NCBI GenBank assembly: GCA_029553545.1
Contig: JAKPKU010000217.1
Coordinates: 1-36,762, forward strand
Length of the DNA stretch: 36,762 nt
Source: Candidatus Cloacimonadota bacterium
Lineage (GTDB): Bacteria > Cloacimonadota > Cloacimonadia > Cloacimonadales > WRIO01
Direction of reading: 5' to 3'
This document shows positions 2,144-3,656 of the stretch, piece after piece. How positions within the stretch are numbered: position 1 is the stretch's first letter; each line of letters opens with the position of its first letter. The notes under the pieces are model-generated. The model was not told where the DNA came from. It was given only the letters and a program-made list of their open reading frames with translations, and ran no database searches. A program made the translations under genes and the position numbers.

Positions 2144-3448
2144 ATGAAGGATTTAGCGAAAAGGGTAATAGGAGGGTCGGTAGAGTACTTCTTTATGCTT
2201 AGGAAGTATATGATAGAGTCCGCTTATATGAAGCTACAGCCGAGATTGCATGAAAAAGCTCTTATAAAACTTAGAGAAAAAGCTAAAAGAGGGGAGAAGG
2301 TCAAGGTTGCCTTTTTTGCTATTTTCTCATCAATGTGGAAGCTTGATGGCATATATAGCTTTTTGCTAAAAGATGAGAGATTTGAGCCTATAATAATTGT
2401 CTGCCCTAACCAACACTACGGTAGAGAGATCATGCTCAATGAGATGGACAAAGCATATAATATGTTTAAAGCTAAAGGCTTTAAGGTTATAAAGGCGTAT
2501 GACGAAGAGAGTGACACATATCTTGATATAAGAAAAGAGATTAATCCAGATCTTATTTTCTATACCAGTCCGTATAAGGGTATAATTTATAAGAATTACC
2601 ATATCACTAAATTTCGAGATAAATTGACCTGCTATGTACCATATGGTTTCAATGCAGCAGCACTGAATGAATCAAATTACAATAATCTGTTCTCGCAGAT
2701 AGTGTGGAAGTTTTTTCTTGAAACTGAGATGCATCTGGAAATGTCGAAGGAGTATGCCAGGAATAAGAGCGTCAATACAGTTGTTACAGGATATCCTGGA
2801 GTCGATGGGTTTGAGTATGGGAGCAGGAGTGATGCGTATGGATGGAAGATAAAAGACCCTCGTTTAAAGAGAATAATCTGGGCACCACATCATACGATAA
2901 ACAATGATATAAAACTCACATATTCAAATTTCTTAAGCTATTATGGGTTTATGTTGGAGCTTGCTGAAAAGTATAAAGATAAAATCCAGATCTGCTTTAA
3001 GCCACATCCTGCTTTGATAATAAAATTATATCAGCACGGTGATTGGGGTAAAGAAAAAACAGATGAATATTATGATAAATGGAAAAATGGGGGAAATACT
3101 CAGATAAATACAGATGATTATATTGACCTATTTAATTCGTCTGATGCGATAATACATGATAGCGGATCTTTCACCACTGAATACCTACACTGTGGCAAAC
3201 CTTGCCAATATATCATGAAAGAAACAACAAAGGCTGAGTTTAATAGATTTGGTCTGATGGCTTTAGATCAGTATTATCAAGCTTGGGAAAAGGCAGATGT
3301 GGAGTGGTTTGTCGAAGAAGTGGTTATCAATGGTAATGATACTATGAAGGAAAGCCGTGATACGTTTTATCATGAGGTGTTGAAATATAAACGAGATAAG
3401 TCAGCTGCTGAAAATGTGTATGAATATGTGTGTAAAGAGCTATTTTAA
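2144..3448 (+). CDS. CDP-glycerol/CDP-ribitol phosphotransferase-like protein (TagF family)
   Basis: 434 residues with the signature blocks of the Glyphos_transf (TagF/TarF/TarL) family: RIIWAPHHTINND, a conserved His motif; CFKPHPALI, the HP motif; and DYIDLFNSSDAIIHDSGSF, the binding loop near the C-terminus. Family members polymerise or prime polyol-phosphate chains from CDP-glycerol or CDP-ribitol at the cytoplasmic membrane face. The ATG follows GAAAGGG, a modest RBS. The Bcs1-like CDP-ribitol gene two genes downstream makes a ribitol-phosphate donor plausible, as in Haemophilus-type capsules, but this is inference. A near-identical C-terminus lies at 1-157, so the cluster holds at least two paralogues. 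Confidence 0.85.
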   Translation: MKDLAKRVIGGSVEYFFMLRKYMIESAYMKLQPRLHEKALIKLREKAKRGEKVKVAFFAIFSSMWKLDGIYSFLLKDERFEPIIIVCPNQHYGREIMLNEMDKAYNMFKAKGFKVIKAYDEESDTYLDIRKEINPDLIFYTSPYKGIIYKNYHITKFRDKLTCYVPYGFNAAALNESNYNNLFSQIVWKFFLETEMHLEMSKEYARNKSVNTVVTGYPGVDGFEYGSRSDAYGWKIKDPRLKRIIWAPHHTINNDIKLTYSNFLSYYGFMLELAEKYKDKIQICFKPHPALIIKLYQHGDWGKEKTDEYYDKWKNGGNTQINTDDYIDLFNSSDAIIHDSGSFTTEYLHCGKPCQYIMKETTKAEFNRFGLMALDQYYQAWEKADVEWFVEEVVINGNDTMKESRDTFYHEVLKYKRDKSAAENVYEYVCKELF

Positions 3449-3482
3449 ATGGTAACATATTGAACAACACACGATAACACAC

Positions 3483-3563
3483 GAAGATTTAAAGTTTTAG
3501 ACAATGGCTGCAATACACGAACAGTTCCATATCCACCAAACGCAAACTATACATTTCTTTTTT
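3483..3563. repeat. 80-bp dispersed unit, copy 2
   Basis: Same unit as at 1905 and 7991. Here it sits inside a block otherwise duplicated from 158-280, so its presence in one copy and absence from the other marks a discrete insertion or excision. Confidence 0.8.
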
Positions 3564-3656
3564 AAACAACACACTACAACACACGATAACACACTATTAA
3601 GATTCAAGGTTTTAAAAAATACACCTTTTGGTTCTCGCTACGCTGCGGGTTAGGAG

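Follow-up and report, generated by a model that had tools for sequence, protein, structure and literature searches.

Two of the best described kinds of modular intergenic repeats are NIMEs, which combine dRS3 and RS units around the 20-bp inverted dRS3 repeat ATTCCC(N8)GGGAAT (PMC3898611), and the pneumococcal BOX elements, composites of the form boxA-(boxB)n-boxC that were judged parasitic in that species (PMC3049150). The AC-rich modules analyzed here resemble NIMEs in that a short constant repeat lies between families of units of 30–160 bp, in that the arrays are intergenic and extend over a few hundred to a few thousand bases, and in that recombination is proposed at the short repeat (PMC3898611); as in NIMEs, some arrays adjoin surface-glycan-type genes. 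By contrast, the AC repeat is a 10-bp direct repeat in one to five phased copies joined to a T-run, unrelated in sequence to the NIME repeat and without a known phage integrase target, and the dRS3 motif was found by reading in no parsed spacer or decamer run. With BOX the modules share a composite organization of small interspersed repeats, tandem middle modules that vary in number, and clustering with, as well as junctions to, other repeat families (PMC3049150). However, BOX has fixed end modules, ISSpn2-like TIRs and a predicted RNA stem-loop (PMC3049150), whereas the AC units that we folded showed no such stem-loop and carry many interchangeable spacers. REP/BIME sequences are likewise high-copy extragenic repeats with a mosaic structure and alternating orientation, and have REP-associated Y1 transposases, a type of gene also present in this genome; unlike them, the AC modules are non-palindromic, with no stable sense-strand hairpin in the units folded, and other hairpin repeats of this genome fit the REP/BIME kind better (PMC2817692). 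A CRISPR array was ruled out, as the spacers recur across loci and range from 9 to 97 nt instead of being unique and equal in length. We consider the AC-rich modules a new family within a known kind, the modular intergenic repeats, since the defining sequences and structures of NIMEs and BOX were tested for and not found.

The window, i.e. the whole stretch of 36,762 nucleotides analyzed (positions in it carry the prefix w), is contig C44 of the 2.88-Mb, 268-contig genome of a Candidatus Cloacimonadota bacterium, and was compared with the genome of a sister species (G001); genome-wide counts are based on searches and fetched stretches. Each module consists of one to five AC-rich decamers (AACAACACAC, TACAACACAC and others) followed by a spacer that ends in a T-run. 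Short spacers measure 9–27 nt (TTCATTTTTTTA, TTTTCCGAACATTTTT or plain T-runs). Long ones, mostly of 59–97 nt, have lengths that peak around 65 and around 83 nt, and a central GTTCCAT box is common to them. Parsing of the fetched loci yielded 34 arrays, of which 33 belong to this genome and one to the sister species, counts that are lower bounds because several arrays lie at contig ends. A second parse recovered 69 complete modules, the number of long modules in an array ranging from one to about seven. The exact sequence AACAACACACNNCAACNCAC has 78 matches genome-wide against none for its reversed control, and the joint between T-run and AACAACACAC (pattern TTTTTTTNAACAACACAC, up to two mismatches) has 141 against one. 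A T-run (at least five T in 8 nt) precedes 105 of the 122 decamer runs, as compared with about 10% of background positions. The 80-bp unit that first drew attention to this locus is thus one interchangeable long spacer in a lineage-specific, dispersed intergenic mosaic. Searching and parsing located on the plus strand of the window an array at w1828–1996, where a short spacer (TTTTTCCGAACATTTTA) accompanies a long unit with 94% identity to that of w3483–3564, and another at w7919–8235, where short, long, short and long spacers follow each other, the last long unit being recognized by eye. The joint search also retrieved, on the minus strand, a lone joint without array (TTTTTTTTAACAACACAC, w18837–18854).

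The unit of w3483–3564 lies behind a plus-strand gene (w2144–3448) with a weak match, below the Pfam cut-off, to CDP-glycerol glycerophosphotransferases. The tail of this gene (w3292–3448) is identical at 149 of 157 positions to the paralogous tail at w1–157, and a third tail at the end of contig C9 matches the latter at 154 of 157 positions but has yet another 3′ flank. Both contigs start at the identical base of the tail, which indicates that the assembly breaks there. A search for relatives with the flanking gene found only one distant Bacteroidales MAG locus. The preliminary description held that the first two flanks are the same except for the unit. Indeed, the unit occurs in the second flank only and an exact 81-bp plus-strand repeat, of family D11, is common to both (w197–277 and w3558–3638), but beyond w277 and w3638 they diverge again and the first carries sequence of its own. 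Between tail and 81-bp repeat, the second block reads AACAACACAC-GATAACACAC-GAAGATTTAAAG...ACATTTCTTTTTTA: two decamers open the module (w3463–3482, plus strand), followed by the long spacer with GTTCCAT, ACATTTC and the T-run (w3483–3564, plus strand) and, after the T-run joint, by the decamer run AACAACACAC TACAACACAC GATAACACAC (w3565–3594, plus strand), which recurs at w204–233 on the same strand. The equivalent place in the first block, as parsed and aligned, holds a short module, AACAACACAC-AACAACACAC-TTCATTTTTTTA (w172–203, plus strand), whose spacer (TTCATTTTTTTA / TTCATTTTTTT) recurs on contigs C9 and C20; it is therefore not an empty site. With a single indel, the best alignment of the two blocks has a gap of 70 bp and still leaves 10 of 128 bases mismatched, and simple insertion of the 80-bp unit into the first block was rejected because of these 10 extra mismatches. 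The difference between the flanks is real, and it is a swap of a long for a short module. The recurrence of TTCATTTTTTT on C9 and C20 favors module exchange, although an old internal deletion might alternatively have created the short spacer of w172–203 with respect to w3463–3564. As for the additional copies of the unit, of which at least three had been announced nearby, two clear ones are in the window (w1886–1992, 94% identity; w7973–8079, 88%) and another is on a different contig (C9, 96%); about 30 weaker or partial matches occur elsewhere in the genome. Downstream of the first block, six tandem copies of a 38–40 bp sequence (TGTAGGGGCGAGCTGTGCTCGTC) occupy w283–504, upstream of an aminotransferase gene.

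A true pair of shorter and longer alleles exists at w18170–18197 (minus strand), found by the joint search and ortholog comparison, where our genome has a minimal joint, T-run plus AACAACACACGACAACACAC, and the orthologous site of the sister species is 188–189 bp longer, with two long modules. AC decamers are present at both edges of this difference and no separate target duplication is visible. Gain or loss of a discrete module with AC-rich borders, as proposed initially, is in this sense confirmed. Its single insertion into an empty site is unsupported: at the compared flanks the other allele is occupied by another module, the joints that form the borders are internal ones and recur in more than 100 modules, and a target duplication could not be distinguished from the decamers. 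The scenario then named as the contrary case, ordinary recombination between AC-rich tracts, fits the evidence better, even though the borders are sharp. AC arrays are missing from four orthologous spacers of the sister species (L080, L077, L081 and L078). In L077 (contig C96), another tandem word (AACGAGTG) comes after the same T-run behind tRNA-Pro, which looks as though the two lineages had each amplified a word of their own at this position. The stretch w15471–18766 is 91–93% identical to its counterpart in the sister species (L073, contig C55), against 68–80% in the other orthologous stretches that were compared. A recent exchange of this stretch, which carries type III CRISPR-Cas genes, between the two lineages is therefore probable; judging from these identities, the only array found in the sister species probably came with it. 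The type III-A genes in w9739–17862 encode Csm1/Cas10, Csm2, RAMP proteins and a Cas_APE2256-domain protein; a gene for a Card1-like nuclease is located on the opposite strand. No CRISPR array was noticed within the window. Of the Card1 region, about 1 kb (w17099–18109) is missing in the sister species. The AC pattern is present in two of the 107 genomes of the order. Searches of GTDB r220 genome contigs and of viral contigs did not find the exact decamer pair, and plasmid and phage records yielded no region similar to the 192-bp one; these collections may omit this genome.

A T-run precedes the start of 26 of the 34 arrays: that of a terminator-like hairpin (w7877–7920, directly before the array of w7919–8235), sites behind tRNA-Pro (L058) or 5S rRNA (L062 and L065, recognized by eye), and the T-run that ends a separate, high-copy dispersed repeat of ~105 bp (41 matches listed among 124 candidates). 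Copies of the latter are present in the window at w8396–8503, w20846–20963 and w36517–36621. In a survey of 48 copies, 13 had AC decamers directly after the T-run and most of the others a different sequence at that joint (AACAACTATCCTTAGTTGGCTCAG...). Lone joints mostly lead from the T-run into a GC-rich small-hairpin module (CTTTTGGTCCTCGCTTCGCTGCGGGTTAGG...). Such hairpin modules, found at w1684–1800, w1995–2056, w3630–3684 and many other loci, are separated by GGTTAGG, and their stems differ while loop type and pairing are kept (CTTCGAC-TTC-GTCGAAG, CTTTCAC-ATTC-GTGAAAG, CATTGC-TTC-GCAATG). Joints at a fixed point of the ~105-bp repeat, the preceding T-runs, and lone joints that lead mostly into similar modules would all be expected of a MITE-like element with the terminal inverted repeat (T)nAACAACACAC, inserting behind T-runs with a transposase acting in trans, the arrays resulting from later amplification of subterminal decamers. 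Opposite-strand arrays that lie close together also face inward with the T-run outermost in all six two-sided arrays parsed, as terminal inverted repeats would, a hint that leaves room for a MITE-like or transpositional past. Nevertheless, most arrays are one-sided, target duplications are not seen, and in AC-bearing copies of the ~105-bp repeat the usual AACAACTATCCTTAGTTGGCTCAG... sequence is mostly absent further downstream, i.e. the module mostly replaces it instead of displacing it. The search for a transposase covered the Y1 family and retrieved two Y1_Tnp matches, one about 1 kb from an AC array, and no transposase gene was found bounded by these ends; a 216-aa frame of this family lies about 0.8 kb downstream of the array in L064 (positions 2447–3097 of that locus, contig C113). 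Y1 enzymes act on hairpins, which the AC units lack. We consequently hold a MITE-like origin to be rather unlikely. Still more doubtful is that the joint T-run|AACAACACAC is recognized by a dedicated transposase or recombinase adding or swapping cassettes behind T-runs such as terminators; if true, this lineage would possess a unique, cassette-like system in its intergenic regions.

The placement of arrays directly after 5S rRNA and tRNA-Pro, and of all four arrays of w1–8140 behind same-strand genes, could also suggest functional 3′-end elements, for instance for Rho-dependent termination or as insulating RNA, a role for which the composition of the array strand (2433 C versus 834 G) would provide a C-rich, G-poor and unstructured transcript. 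Genome-wide, however, arrays show no strand bias with respect to the upstream gene (about 11 on the same strand and 16 on the opposite one, with a rough ORF call), and on this ground a 3′-UTR or terminator role was rejected; orthologous spacers of the sister species do without arrays and the spacers themselves are not conserved, making any 3′-end function improbable. The regularity of some arrays, with periods of 83 and 123 bp, might in turn evoke a small structured RNA or an antitoxin-type repeat RNA. Yet the units fold no better than shuffled sequences on either strand (z from +0.3 to +1.2 in seven of eight, −2.0 in one) and spacers vary in both length and content, so that we give this possibility hardly any credit; an Rfam scan of the window returned no match. 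A host function is unnecessary to explain the arrays, and none is indicated.

We consider it likely that the arrays are an intergenic mosaic, either parasitic or neutral, in which slippage or recombination between short homologies does the remodelling. Local homogenization is evident: the 5′ halves of long units have an identity of 0.79 within arrays versus 0.60 between them, and the 3′ halves 0.78 versus 0.62, and none of 2000 permutations gave a within-array identity as high. Moreover, units of L066 and L067 are 96% alike in their 3′ halves and 54% alike in their 5′ halves, and two neighboring modules of L017 have the same 3′ half while differing in the 5′ half. Near-identical 3′ halves next to unlike 5′ halves imply that exchange takes place inside the units too, at the GTTCCAT box, which would act as a second recombination site besides the decamers and T-run joints. 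The number and identity of modules would change by slippage, or by unequal short-homology recombination between decamers and T-runs. At w3449–3640, one flank of a duplicated gene would have exchanged a first module with a short spacer for one with a long spacer. Gene conversion is the probable route, with a neighbor such as w1866–1996, which shares the GATAACACAC|GAAGATTTAAAG joint, as the donor. New sites may be seeded behind T-runs by recombination or occasional transposition. Homologies of 10–20 bp are poor substrates for RecA, and recombination alone is therefore not a full account of the dispersal to dozens of loci.

These arrays show in a clean and countable form how a mosaic between genes grows: the joint is defined, spacers are interchangeable, halves have been swapped, and one site exists in a shorter and a longer version in two sister species. 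Short-read assemblies of this organism may break at the arrays, which coincide with contig ends, and strain typing could make use of them as a marker.
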